From Flavobacteriales bacterium (GTDB lineage Bacteria; Bacteroidota; Bacteroidia; Flavobacteriales_D; Sanyastnellaceae): a DNA stretch of 64,000 nt. Of this stretch, positions 9,981-39,935 are shown piece by piece. A program made the position numbers and the translations under genes. Location: assembly GCA_022447625.1 (NCBI GenBank), contig JAKVAX010000005.1, positions 62,001 through 126,000 of the forward strand, written 5' to 3'. The notes beneath the pieces are model-generated. The model was not told the DNA's origin. It saw only the letters and a list, made by a program, of their open reading frames with translations, and did no database searches. Numbering within the stretch: the stretch's first letter is position 1; every line of letters begins with the position of its first letter.

Positions 9981-12900
9981 CTATCGTTTCGTGATTCGAC
10001 GATTCAAACACACTGAACCATCTTCATGGCATATGCGCAATGTGTAGAGTCCACGAGCAAGCTTGCTTGTGTTGACGTCAAGCTTGGTTGTTTGGAAAGC
10101 CTCTTGATGTACCAGCTTTCCAGAGTTGTCAATGATCTGTAGGTTGAAGCGACCCTGTTGTTCCATGGAGATATGGAGCAGTCCGTCGTTCGGATTAGGG
10201 TAGACCTGGATATTCCATAGGTATGATTCCTCAATACCTGAATACACAATGAAGTCTTCATCTGACATGTCGATACATCCGAACTCATTGGTGACCTCAA
10301 TAGCGTAATTGCCGTCTTCTAGCACCTCGTAGGTGGCTGAAGTAGCACCATCAATCATTTCGTTGTTCAAGTACCATTGGTAGTTGATGCCCGCATCTCC
10401 ATCATAGGTCAACAGGTTGCCGTTGGCCATGAATGACGCCACCGGTTCTGGATGAAGGAATAAAGACACTTGATCTGTAGCTACACACCCAAATTCAGAC
10501 GTGGCGGCGACGCTGTATTCCGATTCCGCGCTAGCGATAATATCTAGAAAAGCGCCCATGTCTTGATCATCCCATTGAAGATCTCCTTCTCCTGTGGCAA
10601 GGAAAGTGACAGGCTCTTCAGGACAAACAGTTTGGTCCAGTCCAGCATCAACAGCAGGTCTAGGATGAATCGTAATGACAGAGCTATACTCCGCCTCACA
10701 TAACGGATTCACGGCCATCAGTCCGATGTTGATGTCTCCTGGTTCTTCAGGCATGATGAAATATGTCGACTCCACACCGTTGGTCTGGCCGTCTTGATAC
10801 CAATAATAATCTTCGATGTATTGACCGGTGCTATTGAACTGGATCAATTGATCTTCACATTGGGTATCAGAAGCCAGTTCATAGGCAGCGAGTTCGTCGG
10901 TACATTCATAGATCGTATGCCAAGTGGTGTTGGTCACGATTGGTGGGTTGCCATCAAAGAAGATGTAGGCCGTATTATTGATTACATCTCCCGGCTCAAC
11001 ATCTTCACGAGGTTTGATACGATATACTACGTATCCATGACTTTCTTCTTCACAACAAGTGCTGTCAGGTAGCTGAATGTCTGCAAAGTTGAATTCGATG
11101 GCACCATCAGGCTTTATACAAGTGGTGAAGTCGTGCGATCCAAAAGCAGGGTAGAAGGTATCAAGGTCAAGGTGCTCAATATCAAGCGTATCTCGAATGA
11201 TCACATCTCCTGCAGGGAAGTTTCCGGTATTCTGAAAACGAATACGGTATTCCATTTCATTTTCTGGAAGAATGAAGTGGTGTTCTTCGGTGTACCCTTC
11301 AAACTCAGTGTACTTATCGTTCGGGTCATATGCACAAACAACTTCTGGGTAGAGTGTCCAGGTGTTGTTGTAGTATTCGATGCCTTCGTCATTAAATAAG
11401 ACGATGTTCAGGTCTATAGGGAAGGTGACTCCAATGTAATCAACCCCAGGTCCAATGATATGACATTGATAGAGTTCGTCTTGCCCTGCTTCTTGATTGT
11501 TAAACTCCCATATGACTTCTCCAGGATTAATGGTAGTAGGGTCAACTGTGTTGCCACCCATCGGAACAGCTTGAAGCACAGGGTCAAATGAAACTGTAAC
11601 AAATCCGTTCAAAGGGACACCCCCAGAATTCATCACCCAAACACCAGGGTCAAATCCATCATCGCAATGAATATCTTGAAGCCAAATACAACAAGGACCA
11701 TTAAACCAGAAGCTTTCTTCCCCAAGCCATTCAAGGCCGAAGAACCCAGTATTAACGTCACAGTCGTTGATGCTGAAGGTGATTTCTTCACCCGTTGAAA
11801 TTGACCACCCCTCATCCAAATTTTGAATGGAGAAAGTGTAGGTTCCGTGGGTAGATCTTGAAAAGTCACAAAACCATTTTCATTAGTGAACCCAATCCAC
11901 CCTAGCTCATTGATGATGACCTGGGTATTAATCATAGTTGGTTCATTAGCCCAAAAACCACCCCAGCCATCAAATCCACCGTCAAAATCGCCATCACCAT
12001 CAAAATCTTGATATACTAAGATGGTCAATTCGCCATTGTACTCACAATGCTCATTTCCTTCAACCTCGCAAGGAGAAATTGCATAGTAGTTACACGTATT
12101 TTCGTCAGTACAAGTAGGGTAGATACAGTCAACAATGTTATCTGGTTCTTCAAGGAAATTGCACGCTTCAGGATCCATGCAACCACAACTACCCGCAATA
12201 CAAGATCCGTCGTCAATAACAGCAGCTGAGTCGTAATTACAAGCGGTTACATCCATACATCCTAAGGGTGCATCTACGTAATAGGTTAGTTCAGAAAGAT
12301 CGTTACCTCCAACGACGAATTGAAAGGCACTCGAATTACCTAAGTCTAAGAAGTAATAAAAGACAGGATCTTCGAAGCCAAGGTTGTGCAGACCATAAGG
12401 GACGTCTTCGAAAGTAAATACCCCTTCGCTATTAGTGCTTGTAGTTTCTCCTAACGGATCTAACGTAAATGAAAAGTCTGCCATTGGCTGTCCATTCGCA
12501 TTGTTGATAAGAGTAACAGTCACATCGTAAGTACATACCGATATGTTGTCACAGCCCTCAGATCTGCCATAATTAGAAGCTTCAGGGTCAGTACATGTAC
12601 AATCATAGCAGCACCACGAATCGTCAGCTGAATTCGGAAGGTAATTACATGCCTCTTCATCATCACATGAAACCTGACCGATGTACACCGTTTGTGACAG
12701 GGTACCCATAGGTTGTTCAAACCCAGTCAGGAAGCCATCTCCTTCACATGCGAGTGTGTGAACATAGTCTACCCGGCCATTTACGAGATCTCCTCCGATA
12801 AACACCTGAATATTCAGGTTGATTGAAATTGTACCGTCGGTAGTGAACTGTCCGAGAAGAACTCGGTTGTTCGGTCCAGTTGGCAACGCAGAAGGCGAAG

Positions 12901-13364
12901 TCGGTAAAGTAAACCACGCACCGTCATTAATGATTAAGCTCTGACCTTCTGTATTTCCAACACTGCCCGTCCAAGGATCAGAAGGGATTGTTGAAGCTTG
13001 TCCAATATAATTGGCACCAGGGTGCATTGAATCTAAGACACCTATAGTGACCCAAGAATCGAGCTCCAAGGTCGGGAATATGGGGTAAAATACTGGATTG
13101 ATTCCGGCGGGGTTAATACCTCCGAGTACGTCATTGTAAAAAGTTGTTGTGGTTGAAACATCCAAACCGTGACAATCCTCAGTTGCGAATACGGCCGAGA
13201 CGATGTCTGAAGGACTACTAAATTCAGCATATACTCTGTAGATGCTTGTGCCGTCTGGTAATTACAGGAAGGTGGGCTCATGTGTTTCAATCACCACCTG
13301 GTTTAACTGAGCTTCAGTACAGAACGCACTAAGCACAGCGATTAGGGTAGGGCAGCTTTTTCAT
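9981..13364 (-). pseudogene. Decayed type IX-secreted surface protein (two frameshifts, one stop)
   Basis: The parts form one secreted protein read from ATG 13364. The signal peptide (MKKLP + TLIAVLSAFCTEAQ) requires a one-base frame change around 13350. An in-frame TAA follows at 13264-13262 after EPTFL, and the frame resumes as LPDGTSIYRVYAEF. It stays open until a second break near 11845, where CCCACGGAACC needs one more G to join '...FQDLPT' to 'GTYTFSIQNLDEGW'. Modules in order: N-terminal beta domain; cysteine-rich repeats of the CMDxxACNY type (about 12660-12060); a Cna-B-like stretch; a DUF7619-like repeat domain (about 11350-10920); Ig/PKD-like segments; and a type A sorting domain ending CLNRRITKR. 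Three lesions suggest a pseudogene, unless they are base errors. It carries the 13-mer at 10524. Confidence 0.85.
10524..10536 (-). repeat. CGCTARCGCGGAA 13-mer, copy 2
   Basis: Sense copy in the decayed secreted-protein gene, register ASAE. Confidence 0.9.
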
Positions 13365-13571: not shown

Positions 13572-15896
13572 ATGAATACTACGCTTATTCGTTGGAAGCA
13601 AAGCGCAATGATCGCTTTTCTTTCGTTGATGGGACTTTTAGCATTCACTCCGAATCTTACGGCACAATACTGTGAATCAGACGGAGGCGACGGCTACCCA
13701 AACATCGAATCAATTACATTTGGTGATATTTACAACTATTCAGGTGACAACGATGGTTACGGTGACTTCACCGACCTCAGTACGAATCTAGAATTAGATT
13801 CGTACAATGACATTGTACTCAACCCTGGGGGCCCTTGGTGGATCCGTTTCCGTTGGACAGCTTGGATCGATTACGATCAGAATGGTACGTTCGACGATGA
13901 TGAATTGGTGGTTCACCAATCAGGTTATGAAAATGAGTATGCGTCTGTATACGTGCCTGACGATGCATTAGGCGGGGCTACGCGTCTGCGCATCTCAATG
14001 GATACCTACCACTTCCAAGGACCTTGTGCTCACTTTGATTACGGAGAAGTTGAAGATTACACGGTTAACATCAACGGAGGTTGTGAAACATTCGCAGGAA
14101 CATTGACGGCTGTTGAATCTATGGTGTGTTCAAACGGCATGAATACCATCTCAGCTACTCCGAATGGCGACATTGAAATTCCTGAAGGATACTCTTCAGT
14201 GTTCGTCTTAACACAAGGAGAGGGACTGGTCATCGTAAACGCTGGAGCAGAGCCTTCATTCGAAGTGTCTGAACCAGGGCTTTACACGATCCACACACTT
14301 GTATACGATACTGAGACCTTAGATCTAGGAATCATTCAACTCGGTATAACCACTGGATTCGATGTGTTTGGTTTGATCGCTCCAGGAGGAGGATCTATCT
14401 GCGCTGATCTTGACGTAGCGGGTGCGCCAATCATGGTACAGAACCCTGACGCCGGAACATTGTCTGGTGGCGGTGAAGCTTGTGCAGTCGGAGGAGCGGC
14501 TACATTAACGGCGACTCCAAACGGAGATGCGAATGTGCCTTCAGGCTACTCAACAGTCTACGTACTGACACAAGGTGATGGTCTGACGATCATTAACGCT
14601 GGCGCGGAACCTTCGTTCGACGTGACTGAAGCAGGAAACTACACGATCCACACATTAGTTTACAACCCTGAGACTCTTGATCTCGGAATCGTAGAGTTAG
14701 GCGTAACCACAGGATTCGATGTAAATGGATTATTAGTTCAAGGTGGCGGAGCGATCTGTGCTTCTCTTGACGTTCCGGGTGCTCCTTTCTCAGTTGTAGA
14801 ATGTGCATGCGTTGCAGATGCTGGAAGCTTGGTCGCTGATGCTTCAACTGTATGATCTAGCGGAGTAACTACAATTAGCGCTTCAATAAATCAGATGCCG
14901 TTCATCCCAGAAGGATACGCACAAGTGTATGTGTTGACTCAAGGCGACGGACTCGTAATTGTAAACGCAGGTGCTGAGCCATCGTTCGAAGTAGAAGGTG
15001 GTGGCCTTTACACTGTTCACTCATTGGTATTTGATCCGACAACGCTTGATTTAGGCATCGTTGAACTGGGAGTAACCACCGGTTTTGACGTGAACGGACT
15101 GCTCATCCAAGGAGGTGGAGAAATCTGCGCTTCGCTCGACGTAGCAGGTGCACCTATAGTCATTGAAAACCCAAGTGCAGGAACGCTTTACCCAGAAAAC
15201 TTCTTGAACTGTTTGAGCGATGAACCAACTGTACTCACAGCAGTAGCTGATGGCAATGCGATTGTTCCCGAAGGATATGAGCTGCTTTATGTATTGACAA
15301 ACGCATACAACTTGACCATCCTCGACGTGAATTCAGAACCAACATTCGAGGTGACACAATTCGGATTCTACCGAATCCACACTTTAGTGTACAATTCTGA
15401 AACACTGAACCTTGGGGTGGTTGAGCTTGGAGTAACAACTGGCTTTGATGTTAACGACCTACTTACCCAAGATGGAGGAGAGGTTTGCGGTTCTCTAGAC
15501 GTATATGGAGCACTGTTGATTGCGGTTGATCAATGGATCTGCGATTTCCTATGGCAGTTCTTCCGTGGAGAAGTTCCAACTGATCCGCGTGTGATCGAGC
15601 AGATCATAGCGGAATACGACTTGCAAAATGGACCAGCAGATCTAGTTGAAATGAATGTATACCCGAATCCAACGGTAGGTGACGTCACGCTTCAAGTGGA
15701 TGCTGCCTCAACGACAAACGCCCAGCTAGAGATATATGATGTCACTGGACGCGTAGTGAAATCGATGCAAACGCTTCAGTTCGCTGAAGGTTTGAATAAT
15801 TTAGAGCTAGACCTGTCTCCACTAGAGACTGGAAACTATGTGATCCGTTTGATCACCTCTAACAGAGCCCTGACAATTTCCTTTGTTAAGGAATAA
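13572..15896 (+). pseudogene. Secreted GEVED-domain repeat protein with internal TGA
   Basis: The frame starts at ATG 13572 with a signal peptide (hydrophobic IAFLSLMGLLAFTPNLTAQ). A GEVED domain follows (ending DYGEVEDYTV, about residue 165). Then come four copies of an about 110-residue repeat built on PEGYxxVYVLTQGDGL, NAGAEPSFEV, YTIHTLVY and LGVTTGFDVNGL, and finally a type A sorting domain from about 15650 (VYPNPTVGDVTLQV). TGA at 14853-14855 interrupts repeat 3 and the frame continues unchanged after it. In the sister repeats this position is Cys (MVCSNGM, EACAVGG, LNCLSDE), so TGY has become TGA. The downstream half has no signal peptide of its own. Probably a nonsense mutation or base error; intact otherwise. 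Confidence 0.85.
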
Positions 15897-35162: not shown

Positions 35163-38100
35163 TTAATCACATAGCTGGCCGTATGCACCTAGCAATGAGA
35201 GTAAGTCTCCAGTGGATACAATACCATCGCCATTGATGTCTTCTGCACAAGTCACGTTTCCGCCTTCAGTATACAGACAGAAGCCATCATCAAAGGTCGC
35301 ATTCGGGTTGTAGTTCCAAGCATTCTCATCTGTACACCCGGTGATGTCACAATCACTTTCCACAGTTACTATAACAAAGTCGTCAGCTGTACATCCATTG
35401 ACATCGGTTATTGTAACCGTGTAAGTGGTAGTAGTTGTTGGTGAAGCGTTCGGACTAGAGCTACCAGCATCTGACAAACCTGCGCTCGGTGACCAAGCAT
35501 AACTAACTCCACCTGAGGCTTGCAACACAGTAGTTTCTCCTACACAAATGGTTACATCATTCCCTGCAGAGGCTACTGGTGCGCTTATATTGAATCCGAA
35601 GTTACTTTGATCGGTAAACACAGGTGAAGTACTGTCGTAAACGCGGATTAACGCTTCCGCGCTAGCGTTATTAGGAACAGTCCATACATACTGCTGATCA
35701 AGCGTGTAGAAATTGCTGACGATGTTATTCCACGACACACCGTTATCTAGAGAATAGTCTATCGTGAACTCATCACTAGTATTCACAGCATTCCAGTCAA
35801 TAACAACCTGATTACAAGCAGCAAACGACTCTCCACCCAATGGGTAGTTCAAGTTGACCAGCCCTTGTTGAACACCACTCACTTCGAAGAGGTCATCAGA
35901 AATATCACTCTTACAGTTATCGATGTTATCTGTCACGCGAATCAAGTAGTTCGTTGAAAGTTGACCTGGAACAACCCAGCTGTAGCTCTCATTCGGGATG
36001 TAAACATTGAATGCGATGTTATTCCAAGAAACACCACCATCTACAGAATAGTCGATATCATAGAATTCTGAAGCTCCTTCATTGAGCCAGGTGATGTCGA
36101 TGTTTTGGCCAACACCAAGGACTTCACCACCGTTTGGTCCAGTAATCGTAATTGCAGGCGCAATCGTGAAAGTATCGTCACTTTCATCTACTTGAAGTGT
36201 GTTGTAACGGTTTTCAACTCGCACCAAGGTAGCTGGAGATGGGGCGCTTGGCAAAATCCAATCAAAGCTATGCGTGACACCTGGAGAGTAGTAGTTCGAA
36301 TTCAAGCTCGTCCAACTGTTTCCATTGTCAGTACTGTAATAGATTCTGAAGTAGGCTGATGTACCCACGCTGGTCCAAGTCACCGTAGTTTCTGTACACA
36401 CGCGCCAATCTTGAATTCCATTGTCTCCGTTCGGTGAAGTGACAATAATCGCCTCACGAATTTCAAAGGTCTCATCAGACACATCCGTCTCAGAAGGATT
36501 GTCAATACTCGTAATACGGATCAGGCATTCGGTCGAAATCACTTCAGGAACCAACCATGAGTACGAACCGTCATTTACTTCCGCAGCACTAATCGTCTGC
36601 CAGCTCGCTCCATTGTCTTCCGACAATTCAATCAAGACAAATGACGAATTGTAGTATTCATCGGTCCATGTAATGTTCACTGTTTGATACTGACCAAAGA
36701 CCTGAGAGGTGTTCGGGTAGGTAACCTGAGGCTCTGGCTGTTCAATGCTGAAGGTGGCGTCGGATTCGTCAACACGACATGCGGCATTGTAGTAATCGAC
36801 AATCCTCACCAAACACTCGCTTGAAGGTGTGTTTGGCACGTTCCAGTTATAGAGTCCATCACTATTCTCAAAATCATCGATGTAATCCCAAGTAACACCA
36901 TTGTCTAGCGATAAATAGATCTGCACATAATTGACAGGCGAAATCGATGCCCATGTGATTTGATGTATCGTACCACTAATCAGAGTTTCACCACCATTTG
37001 GTGAAGTGACAATGATATCGTTGTTCGGACTTAACGTAAACGGCGTGTCCGATTCATCAAAGATGTACGACCATGTATTGTCTTCAACGCGAACCATTAC
37101 CGGTCCACTTACCGGTGGGTAAACCCAGTTGTAAAAAGTTCCTGTTTGGTTGCTGGCGATGGTTGTCCACGAAGCACCGTTGTCTACTGAGTATTGAATA
37201 CGGAAACGGTTGTTGAATGTACCGCCACTCGTCCATGTAATGTTGAAGGCTTCACATTGCGTTTCTACTTCACCACCTGTTGGGTAAGTTATTTCAATGA
37301 ATGGTGGACGTACTGCAAAGTTGAATGGTGAGATTCCTTCAACCATGCTTCCTACTTCGCTAACGCGGAATAGGCAGACCTCTGAATACTCTTCAGCGAA
37401 TGTCACTACGTAGCTTCCGTCGTCTTCTGTTGCGGCAATGATGTTCGTCCATGAAGCGCCATTGTCATCAGAGAAATCGATAGATACGAAAGGTGAGGTG
37501 AGGTATTCACTGTTCCAGTTTAGGTTATATCCTTTGTTTGGGTAGTATACCTGGTTTTCAATAGCACCAATGTTCGTGATCTCAATGACAGGAGTTGGAG
37601 GTGCAATCGTAAAGATCGCATCCGACACATCGAATCGGCAATTGCCGTTGTAGTAGTCCTCAATGCGAATCAAACACTGCGTTGACGGGTTGTTCGGAAC
37701 ATTCCAGTTGAAGTTACCATCACTGTTCTCAAAGTCATCAATCAAGAGCCATGAAGCCCCATTGTCAATCGAGTAGTAAAGCTCCACGTAGTTTACTGGA
37801 GATACCGACGCCCAGTTAATGGTCACATTGGTTCCTACTTCTAGCGTTTCACCGCCGTTAGGCGATGTGATGATGATATCTGTATTCGGGCTTAGCGTGA
37901 ACGGCGTATCACTTTCATCAAAGATGTACGACCACGTATTGTCTTCAACACGAACCATTACCGGCCCACTCACTGGCGGGTAAACCCAGTTGTAAGAAGT
38001 TCCCGTTTGGTTGCTAGCGATGGTTGTCCATGAAGCACCGTTGTCTACTGAGTACTGAATGCGGAAACGGTTGTTGAATGTACCTCCACTTGTCCAAGTA

Positions 38101-39935
38101 ATATTGAAGGCTTCACATTGAGTTTCCACATCACCGCCCGTTGGGTAAGTTATTTCAATGAATGGTGGACGTACGGCAAAGTTGTAAGGTGAGATTCCTT
38201 CAACCATGCTTCCTACTTCGCTAACGCGGAATAGGCAGGTCTCTGAATATTCTTCAGCGAAAGTCACAACGTAGCTTCCGTCGTCTTCAGTAGCCGCAAT
38301 GATGTTCGTCCAAGAAGCGCCATTGTCATCAGAGAAATCGATGGATACGAAAGGAGAGGTGAGGTATTCACTGTTCCAGTTCAAGTTGTAGCCTTTGTTT
38401 GGATAATAGACTTGATTCTCAAATGCTCCAATATTGGTGATCTCAATGATCGGCGTTGGAGGAACAATGGTAAACACGGCGTCTGATACATCGTAACGAC
38501 AGTTGCCATTGTAATAATCCTCGATACGGATTAGGCATTCCGTAGACGGCGTATTCGGCACGTTCCAGTTGAAGTTACCATCACTATTCTCGAAGTCATC
38601 AATTAAGAGCCAAGAAACACCGTTGTCGATAGAGTAGTAGAGCTCCACATAGTTCACTGGAGAGACTGACGCCCAAGTTATCGTGTGGTTTGTGCCTACC
38701 TGAATGTTCTCTCCGCCATTCGGTGAAGTAATGATAATGTCACCATGTGGAGCAAGGGTAAAGGGTGCATCGCTATCATCAAAGAGTGCTGCATTGTTGT
38801 TGTCTTCAACCCGGATTAAAGCTGGACCTTCAATTGGAGGGTAAACCCAGTTGTAGCTACTCCCTAATTGATTGCTAGCAATGGTTGTCCAAGACGCGCC
38901 ATTGTCTTCAGAGTATAGAATGCGGAATCGGTTGTTGAATGACCCACCGCTATTCCAGGTGATGGTGAACTGCTCGCATTGCGTTTCAATCTCACCGCCG
39001 TTAGGGTAGGTGACATCAATGAACGGCGCTGCAACAGAGAAGTTGTCACTTACATCAAAGGTGCTCGGATTTGCTAAGTCTGTAATACGAATGAGGTAAT
39101 CATCAGAGATGACATTCGGAGCGGTCCAAGTGTACAAGCCATCGTCTTCTGTGATGCTAGCGATGATTTGCCAGCTGGCTCCATTGTCATTGCTAAACTC
39201 AATTTGCACTTGATCTGAGACGACATACTCGGACGTCCACGTAATGTTGTATTGCTTGGTGGCGTAATAGGTTTGTCCAGCATAAGGACTAGTAATCGTA
39301 ATCGTTGGCGTGGCTGGGATGATCTCTAAGAGGTTGTCACTCTTGTCTGATTTACATGCCTCGTAGTAGTCGGTAATTTGAACGAGAACGTTCGCCGATG
39401 GAGTATTGGGCACGTTCCAGTTGAACGAGCCATTGGTGTTGTAGAAGAAGTCATCGATGTAGCTCCAAGTATTTCCACCATCGAGGGAGTATTCAAGGAT
39501 GTAGTAATTGCTCGTATTTGCTGCTACCCATGTGATGTTCACATTGTCACCGCCTTGAATGGTTTCATTTCCATTCGGATAAGTGAGCAGGAGAGGAGCT
39601 GCCAACGAGAAGTTCAGGTTGCTAACGTCTTCGATGGCATTGTTGTTTGAGTCTTGTACTCGAATCAAAACGTTGGTTGACTGGATATTCGGAACCGTCC
39701 AGACATACTCGCCATCGGTCGTATTGTAGAAAGTGGCAATCGACGTCCAGTTCACCCCACCATTGATCGAGTAATCAATGCTGTAGAAGTTCGAAGTTCC
39801 TGAATCGTTCCACGTGATTGTTTGGGTGGTACACCCTTGCCAAACTTCACCGCCGTTTGGTGAAGTAATGGTAATTGTTTGCGCGCACAACACTGCGTTG
39901 GCGAACAAGGCCAAGAGAAGTAGAAAGTGTTTCAT
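35163..39935 (-). CDS. Giant secreted protein of tandem Ser/Thr-rich Ig-like domains with Ca-binding end
   Basis: A signal peptide (HFLLLLALFANAVLCAQ) leads into about 15 copies of an about 95-residue Ig-like domain of the Kre9/KNH type. Each copy runs from ITSPNGGE through W.. to YSIDNGASWT and ends with NVPNTPS...LIRIxDxxx..DxSDxxFTI. The domains are arranged as three larger units of about 287 residues, two of which are nearly identical. Then a PKD-like domain appears (GNDVTICVGETTVL), then CTDENAWNYNPNATFDDG, and a final EF-hand/dockerin-like DINGDGIVSTGDLLSLLGAYG. No standard type A sorting domain is visible at the end. It is probably a surface adhesin or stalk. The 13-mer is present at 35655, 37356 and 38217. 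Confidence 0.9.
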   Translation of the reverse strand: MKHFLLLLALFANAVLCAQTITITSPNGGEVWQGCTTQTITWNDSGTSNFYSIDYSINGGVNWTSIATFYNTTDGEYVWTVPNIQSTNVLIRVQDSNNNAIEDVSNLNFSLAAPLLLTYPNGNETIQGGDNVNITWVAANTSNYYILEYSLDGGNTWSYIDDFFYNTNGSFNWNVPNTPSANVLVQITDYYEACKSDKSDNLLEIIPATPTITITSPYAGQTYYATKQYNITWTSEYVVSDQVQIEFSNDNGASWQIIASITEDDGLYTWTAPNVISDDYLIRITDLANPSTFDVSDNFSVAAPFIDVTYPNGGEIETQCEQFTITWNSGGSFNNRFRILYSEDNGASWTTIASNQLGSSYNWVYPPIEGPALIRVEDNNNAALFDDSDAPFTLAPHGDIIITSPNGGENIQVGTNHTITWASVSPVNYVELYYSIDNGVSWLLIDDFENSDGNFNWNVPNTPSTECLIRIEDYYNGNCRYDVSDAVFTIVPPTPIIEITNIGAFENQVYYPNKGYNLNWNSEYLTSPFVSIDFSDDNGASWTNIIAATEDDGSYVVTFAEEYSETCLFRVSEVGSMVEGISPYNFAVRPPFIEITYPTGGDVETQCEAFNITWTSGGTFNNRFRIQYSVDNGASWTTIASNQTGTSYNWVYPPVSGPVMVRVEDNTWSYIFDESDTPFTLSPNTDIIITSPNGGETLEVGTNVTINWASVSPVNYVELYYSIDNGASWLLIDDFENSDGNFNWNVPNNPSTQCLIRIEDYYNGNCRFDVSDAIFTIAPPTPVIEITNIGAIENQVYYPNKGYNLNWNSEYLTSPFVSIDFSDDNGASWTNIIAATEDDGSYVVTFAEEYSEVCLFRVSEVGSMVEGISPFNFAVRPPFIEITYPTGGEVETQCEAFNITWTSGGTFNNRFRIQYSVDNGASWTTIASNQTGTFYNWVYPPVSGPVMVRVEDNTWSYIFDESDTPFTLSPNNDIIVTSPNGGETLISGTIHQITWASISPVNYVQIYLSLDNGVTWDYIDDFENSDGLYNWNVPNTPSSECLVRIVDYYNAACRVDESDATFSIEQPEPQVTYPNTSQVFGQYQTVNITWTDEYYNSSFVLIELSEDNGASWQTISAAEVNDGSYSWLVPEVISTECLIRITSIDNPSETDVSDETFEIREAIIVTSPNGDNGIQDWRVCTETTVTWTSVGTSAYFRIYYSTDNGNSWTSLNSNYYSPGVTHSFDWILPSAPSPATLVRVENRYNTLQVDESDDTFTIAPAITITGPNGGEVLGVGQNIDITWLNEGASEFYDIDYSVDGGVSWNNIAFNVYIPNESYSWVVPGQLSTNYLIRVTDNIDNCKSDISDDLFEVSGVQQGLVNLNYPLGGESFAACNQVVIDWNAVNTSDEFTIDYSLDNGVSWNNIVSNFYTLDQQYVWTVPNNASAEALIRVYDSTSPVFTDQSNFGFNISAPVASAGNDVTICVGETTVLQASGGVSYAWSPSAGLSDAGSSSPNASPTTTTTYTVTITDVNGCTADDFVIVTVESDCDITGCTDENAWNYNPNATFDDGFCLYTEGGNVTCAEDINGDGIVSTGDLLSLLGAYGQLCD
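35655..35667 (-). repeat. CGCTARCGCGGAA 13-mer, copy 6
   Basis: Sense copy in the giant secreted gene, register ASAE (NASAEAL); here flanked by AACGCT...AGCGTT. Confidence 0.9.
37014..37874 (-). repeat. 861-base tandem duplication within the giant secreted gene, unit 1
   Basis: This unit and the next (37875-38732) align base for base at an offset of 861 and encode nearly identical three-domain blocks. Differences are scattered synonymous changes and a few amino-acid changes. A third, more diverged block lies upstream in the protein. The high identity indicates a recent internal duplication or gene conversion. Confidence 0.85.
37358..37370 (+). repeat. CGCTARCGCGGAA 13-mer, copy 7 (A variant)
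   Basis: Antisense to the giant secreted gene; coding register is FRVSE. Confidence 0.9.
37875..38732 (-). repeat. 861-base tandem duplication within the giant secreted gene, unit 2
   Basis: Second copy, boundary set by the GATATC landmark at 37875 (37014 in unit 1). It carries its own copy of the 13-mer at 38217, in the same place as the copy at 37356, so those two are not independent occurrences. Confidence 0.85.
38219..38231 (+). repeat. CGCTARCGCGGAA 13-mer, copy 8 (A variant)
   Basis: Same place as copy 7 in the second 861-base duplicate, so not independent of it. Confidence 0.9.

Follow-up and report, generated by a model that had tools for sequence, protein, structure and literature searches.

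Sequences in which genes are broken in one genome and intact in a close relative have been described for Vibrio fischeri ES114. When that strain was resequenced, 75 of 82 suspect loci were reported to hold an error, mostly a frameshift (PMC2330054). The locus described here is similar in that a gene broken in one sequence is intact in a close relative. It differs from the ES114 case in that the relative, G002, is another species of the genus (hereafter the sister species) and not a conspecific strain. A second parallel is provided by Belinky et al. (2021), whose account concerns stop codons inside genes with dN/dS well below 1, as is the case here; they kept stops found in at least two genomes in order to reduce sequencing errors (PMC7918605), whereas the stop in our gene is known from one genome.

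The gene itself resembles type A cargo of the type IX secretion system, which is recognized by the sorting domain TIGR04183/PF18962: it has a signal peptide (identified by eye), a GEVED domain, repeats and the sorting domain. Unlike such cargo, its signal peptide is separated from its sorting domain by a TGA codon as the sequence stands. The position of this codon also recalls the recoding of UGA as selenocysteine in place of cysteine, for which a UGA in the place of a conserved cysteine is typical; unlike selenocysteine systems, however, the genome has no SelB or tRNA-Sec scoring above the cut-off, and no unusual RNA structure follows the codon.

Architecture of the interrupted gene

The window, by which we mean the whole stretch of 64,000 nucleotides that was analysed, comprises bases 62001–126000 of contig C45 in a draft genome (G000) of 3.9 Mb in 76 contigs. 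The original prediction, made from the letters of the window, was that the frame 13572–15896 is open save for one TGA. Translation bears this out: the frame is 775 codons long, its single internal stop is the TGA at 14853–14855, which corresponds to C45:76853–76855, and its terminal codon is TAA. The features of the gene are listed here in window coordinates.

13572–15896, + strand: secreted repeat protein gene, interrupted; its orthologue in the sister species encodes an intact protein of 1250 residues
13572–13667, + strand: Sec signal peptide of approximately 32 residues, identified by eye from the translation
13854–14069, + strand: GEVED domain (PF20009), residues 95–166, Pfam match with E 7e-17
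14094–14432, + strand: repeat 1, residues 175–287; first cysteine TGT at 14127–14129, second cysteine at 14400
14442–14789, + strand: repeat 2, residues 291–406; first cysteine TGT at 14481–14483, second cysteine at 14757
14814–15158, + strand: repeat 3, residues 415–529, which holds the TGA; second cysteine at 15126 intact
14853–14855, + strand: TGA at the first-cysteine site of repeat 3; TGT in the sister species; next base T (+4U)
15168–15515, + strand: repeat 4, residues 533–648; first cysteine TGT at 15210–15212, second cysteine at 15486
15657–15869, + strand: C-terminal sorting domain for type IX secretion (PF18962/TIGR04183), found with Pfam and NCBIfam

The Pfam and NCBIfam matches put the GEVED domain upstream and the type IX sorting domain downstream of the TGA, so that the second half does retain a sorting domain, as had been proposed. 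According to Pfam, PF18962 covers residues 255–325 of a 333-residue ORF that starts at 14895, downstream of the TGA; this ORF has no signal peptide by eye. The occurrence of TIGR04183/PF18962 at the C terminus, in the part past the TGA, identifies the gene as one for type A type IX cargo. A scan for promoters and terminators contributed nothing to the interpretation.

The repeat family and its relatives

The repeat unit is approximately 119 residues long and has two cysteine positions, and the gene holds four copies. It had been noted that the other three repeats have cysteine, encoded by TGT or TGC, at the exact position of the TGA. A cysteine codon is indeed present in all three, although the wording was slightly loose, since all are TGT and the spacing between the two cysteines differs, at 91 residues in the odd-numbered repeats and 92 in the even-numbered ones. 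With a repeat HMM we collected 19 copies across G000, the sister species and two further genomes (G001 and G016). All 19 have the second cysteine and 18 the first, the exception being the repeat with the TGA; in four of these 18, the first cysteine sits one alignment column earlier. On these counts the first cysteine is a conserved feature of the repeat, and the two cysteines are likely to pair within each repeat.

No convincing family was found for the repeat in Pfam or NCBIfam (one NCBIfam porin model matched at E 0.001, far below its cut-off), nor did a sequence search yield a convincing relative of solved structure (best E 0.39). Structure prediction gave mostly β strands for a single repeat, with a pLDDT of 73, and a pLDDT of 42 for two repeats. 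When the single-repeat model was compared with the PDB, the predicted fold gave weak Ig/FnIII-like matches only; the best had E 0.016, and none reached 0.001.

A sequence search of 60 genomes, including the window's own, gave a match in at least 58 of them; among the matches listed, most span the sorting domain only. A scan of genome contigs identified six loci, every one matched through the sorting domain only, in a set that may leave out near records of the window's own genome. The full orthologue is found in the sister species, which is represented by a single contig: its uninterrupted frame encodes 1250 residues, eight repeats among them, and runs through the site of the TGA with no gene boundary there. 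The orthologous codon is TGT, which supports the claim that a single TGY-to-TGA change suffices to account for the stop. Contig C45 and the sister genome are mostly collinear, largely at 89–93% identity, with several gaps and poorer stretches.

The difference between four repeats in G000 and eight in the sister species reflects either a real contraction or a collapse in assembly. A two-repeat unit occurs in three copies in the sister species (86–99% nucleotide identity) and in one copy in G000; the regions concerned are window 14082–14801 and C1:1637039–1640791 of the sister genome. Another tandem array, at window 36787–39028, aligns to several overlapping places in the sister genome, which seems to have more copies of it.

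Constraint on either side of the TGA

In comparison with the sister species, the 408 codons before the TGA have a dN/dS of 0.061 and the 346 codons after it one of 0.067; the median for C45 is 0.044 (155 gene pairs, a further two of the 157 pairs having no defined value). The downstream differences number 14, 8 and 83 at codon positions 1, 2 and 3 respectively (83 of 105 at third positions), and include 22 nonsynonymous changes, compared to 20.5 expected without relaxation. Assuming equal branch lengths and neutrality afterwards, any relaxed period occupies at most approximately 8% of the G000 branch. From this pattern of substitution, the part after the TGA looks as if it is still coding. The linker and sorting domain together have a dN/dS of 0.161 and the sorting domain alone 0.211, both higher than the rest of the gene; the latter value is slightly above the range of 0.026–0.186 for six other sorting domains on C45. 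We do not take this as decay, yet it counts towards slight relaxation.

Because dN/dS is equal on either side of the TGA, any real stop must be very recent, and on the whole the stop appears to be either very recent or not real. An established or old pseudogene is ruled out by the two ratios (0.067 against 0.061) and by the presence of a single lesion in 775 codons. The original interpretation finds partial support: dN/dS excludes long-standing decay and is compatible with a recent, real one. The gene has the marks of a recent nonsense allele, namely a single lesion, an intact orthologue and no relaxation as yet, but a base error passes the same test, which therefore does not discriminate between the two.

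The adjoining cargo gene

The gene next to the interrupted one is also broken.

9981–13364, − strand: divergent type IX cargo gene (DUF7619, sorting domain), homologue of an intact 1259-codon frame in the sister species

In this neighbour the frame of the signal peptide is lost, a TAA follows, and there is a second frame change near 11.85 kb. Its C-terminal 617 codons have a dN/dS of 0.087, and its lesions therefore look recent, which is equally compatible with base errors. Its counterparts in the sister species are two intact tandem paralogues, with open frames of 1396 and 1259 codons. In G001 (locus L030) and G016 (locus L031), sequence related to the N-terminal part of the neighbour (28–37% identity) occurs together with the repeats of the TGA gene within single large proteins, the open frame in G001 being 3333 codons long. 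This association suggests that the two families are related in use. A joint recent decay of the locus is possible, and further base errors are likewise possible.

Lesions across the assembly

We surveyed contigs C45, C23 and C12 (917 of 3907 kb) against the matching parts of the sister genome in both directions. For predicted genes of at least 130 codons, tblastn of the other genome was used to find mid-gene stops and frame changes; a coding test was applied (differences mainly at third positions), and gene ends were left out. A mid-gene lesion was flagged in 21 of 620 testable genes in G000 and in 7 of 623 in the reverse direction (Fisher p 0.007). By contig, the flagged genes are 7 of 204 on C12, 10 of 242 on C23 and 4 of 174 on C45 for G000, and 3 of 206, 1 of 243 and 3 of 174 respectively for the sister species.

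The cases were then curated, in both directions by our own judgement. We dropped from the 21 forward cases an old pseudogene with nine stops, the gene at C45:168362–168737 (two stops and a frame change), an ORF of doubtful status with its stop at codon 28, and a duplicate query that hit a place already counted. The curated G000 set contains 17 isolated stops in 14 genes (eight TAA, six TAG and three TGA, the TGA in the window included) and three genes with an isolated frameshift. Two of the seven reverse cases were judged real by eye (the genes at C45 4176–5198 and 204632–205609); four others are N-terminal and resemble start extensions, and the last, a frame change, affects a 158-residue ORF of doubtful status. 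After curation, genes with isolated stops number 14 against 2 (p 0.002). If the doubtful 158-residue ORF is kept, the comparison is 17 against 3 for all lesions (p 0.001) and 14 against 3 for genes with stops (p 0.007). Frameshifts are undercounted, since the broken neighbour in the window escapes flagging.

Only one of the 17 isolated stops is a certain transition, and one more is ambiguous, whereas the transition bias measured at 110,246 fourfold sites would predict 35% (p 0.006, rising to 0.03 when the ambiguous case is counted). Uniform random error predicts 18% transitions, which the data do not reject. Six of the 17 stops need an assumed, unseen earlier step, and for the 11 one-step stops alone the deficit of transitions is weak (p 0.06). 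At the rate found in the survey, 0.05 stops are expected per 775-codon gene and 1.2 per 64-kb window, so that one such stop here is ordinary.

Three isolated lesions are the most telling, the first two in genes presumed indispensable. The sole alaS falls into two pieces at a one-base frameshift (C23:246858), and a search of the genome for the alaS family found these two halves and no further copy. The gene between murC and ftsA, which is the position of ftsQ, has a TAA after 174 codons (C23:147385), and its remaining 81 residues are in frame and closely match the sister species; this gene has no match in NCBIfam or Pfam and is named from its position alone. A helicase gene similar to pcrA/uvrD, at C23:263910, has a frameshift in a run of C, with the longer piece 99.5% identical to the orthologue; its best NCBIfam match is pcrA, below the cut-off. 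Both alaS and ftsQ would be expected to be essential. A real disabling mutation in a single-copy alaS would be surprising; no viable cell ought to have its alaS split, and a stop in the gene at the ftsQ position is hardly to be expected. Given that lesions are found in the only alaS and in the gene at the ftsQ position, the assembly very probably contains base errors.

Origin of the TGA codon

We consider that the TGA is probably, though by no means certainly, a wrong base in the draft assembly. It appears to belong to the error class of this assembly, the base being judged here by its class. We favour this reading because isolated lesions hit presumably indispensable genes of the same assembly; in addition, the equality of dN/dS on both sides of the TGA is as an error predicts. 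The shortage of transitions among the isolated stops also speaks for errors, though it is weak for the one-step stops alone. The original prediction had offered recent decay, readthrough or a wrong base: of these it is the wrong base that comes out best, recent decay being possible and readthrough fitting poorly. If the base is wrong, the gene would most likely be as it is in the sister species, encoding one intact secreted protein exported by the type IX system. This protein would consist of a signal peptide, the GEVED domain, several two-cysteine repeats in tandem and, at its C terminus, the signal for type IX export.

Several observations argue against an error. The surest cases of error, in alaS and the pcrA-like gene, are frameshifts rather than substitutions, and the stop at the ftsQ position is the only stop in a likely essential gene. 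If all 17 stops are errors, the implied rate of approximately 5 substitutions per 10,000 bases is high. Moreover, a real null is plausible in a gene of this kind, and the neighbour is broken too.

These last points bear on the main alternative, which we regard as a serious but less probable one: that the TGA is a genuine and very recent nonsense mutation, segregating or newly fixed. Such a mutation lies one substitution away from the TGT of the sister species, in a gene of a type that is plausibly dispensable. The adjoining cargo gene is broken at several places, and the finding of neighbour-type and repeat sequences in one protein in G001 and G016 means that the two could decay jointly; a clearly old pseudogene (C45:219588–220902, nine stops listed) is present on the same contig. 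The product would be a protein of 427 residues with the signal peptide, the GEVED domain and two repeats, without the sorting domain, and would be periplasmic or degraded. What counts against this alternative is that the downstream part shows no relaxation (22 against 20.5 nonsynonymous changes, and at most approximately 8% of the branch), and that both the excess of genes with isolated stops over the sister species and the split alaS point to the assembly. If the TGA is real, it would represent a null allele of recent origin and ordinary kind in a type IX cargo gene.

It is improbable that the TGA is read through, by leaky decoding of UGA or by a near-cognate tRNA, to give some full-length protein in a low-level or noisy manner. 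The sequence past the TGA is constrained, as this idea needs, and among the three stops UGA is described as the one with the most frequent readthrough (PMC5289835). For in-frame stops in genes with dN/dS below 1, a widespread occurrence in bacteria and frequent readthrough have been argued, although their persistence is said to be limited mostly to the time scale of polymorphism within populations (PMC7918605). Here, the stop is not common to the sister species, which has TGT. The next base is U, which is linked to low readthrough, readthrough being greater when UGA precedes C or A (PMC5289835); the figure cited in that paper for UGA-U was measured in yeast, and what the paper itself finds in bacteria mainly concerns UAA. 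No UCA anticodon, which would read UGA, was found among 33 tRNA matches (ARAGORN on the loci, with 150 of 238 candidates scored in the family search). RF2 is present: prfB scores over the cut-off and is open apart from its usual +1 frameshift site. A TAA listed inside the prfB match sits upstream of the joined part; in G000 and the sister species alike, a short first frame closes with a stop before the second frame, as in a prfB gene that regulates itself by frameshifting. In addition, the isolated stops of G000 comprise all three kinds, and 42 orthologue pairs terminate in TGA in both genomes. The gene thus has neither a conserved stop nor a permissive context, the 33 tRNA matches include no decoder, and with no SelB or tRNA-Sec over the cut-off either, readthrough lacks positive support.

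A recoded genome, in which TGA has ceased to be a stop, is rejected: TGA terminates 48 of 157 genes on C45, and RF2 is retained. Taken together, the lack of a decoder among the tRNA matches and of a SelB over the cut-off, the presence of RF2, the use of TGA as a terminator and the intact codon of the sister species make readthrough or recoding unlikely.

A more elaborate scheme, which we consider very doubtful, is that a real TGA represents an OFF allele of a surface repeat protein in this strain. The UGA would sever the export signal, leaky decoding would yield rare full-length protein, and recombination among the repeats would restore the cysteine. The break would then be reversible.

We attach still less weight to a local misassembly, in which the tandem array collapsed and the TGA was born at a wrong join. 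The sister species has three two-repeat units where G000 has one, the further tandem array on C45 maps to several overlapping places in the sister genome, and G000 is split over 76 contigs, all of which would fit such a collapse. The TGA, however, lies in repeat 3, away from the join of the repeated unit, and repeat 3 matches the unique repeat 7 of the sister species at 89%, compared to at most 66% for any other repeat.

Selenocysteine at the conserved cysteine is the least credible reading and is rejected on selB, tRNA-Sec and RNA fold: the best SelB match scores 190 bits against a cut-off of 242 and the best tRNA-Sec 44.5 against 47 bits (control genomes over the cut-off: 2 of 14 for selB, 5 of 14 for tRNA-Sec), the eight best tRNA-Sec candidates are ordinary Ser, Leu, Trp, His, Tyr and Glu tRNAs, and in folding, the RNA surrounding and following the UGA does not exceed shuffled sequences (z 0.37, −0.29 and 1.11), which gives no sign of a bSECIS hairpin just downstream.

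Other interrupted genes

Our preferred reading, that the TGA is a wrong base, calls for caution with the rest of this genome. Approximately 3% of the tested genes (21 of 620) were flagged with stops or frameshifts, and the sole alaS is among the broken ones; other interrupted genes in the window and the genome should therefore be discounted before decay, recoding or readthrough is proposed for them. An isolated TAG is also found at C12:1668, in a gene with an ATP-cone and a ribonucleotide reductase small subunit (nrdB-like). We did not use it as evidence, because an intact second small-subunit gene is present on contig C56. The old pseudogene dropped from the survey, at C45:219463–221088, has many stops and frame changes (the nine listed stops lie between 219588 and 220902) and is intact in the sister species; it resembles what we take to be a family-9 glycoside hydrolase.
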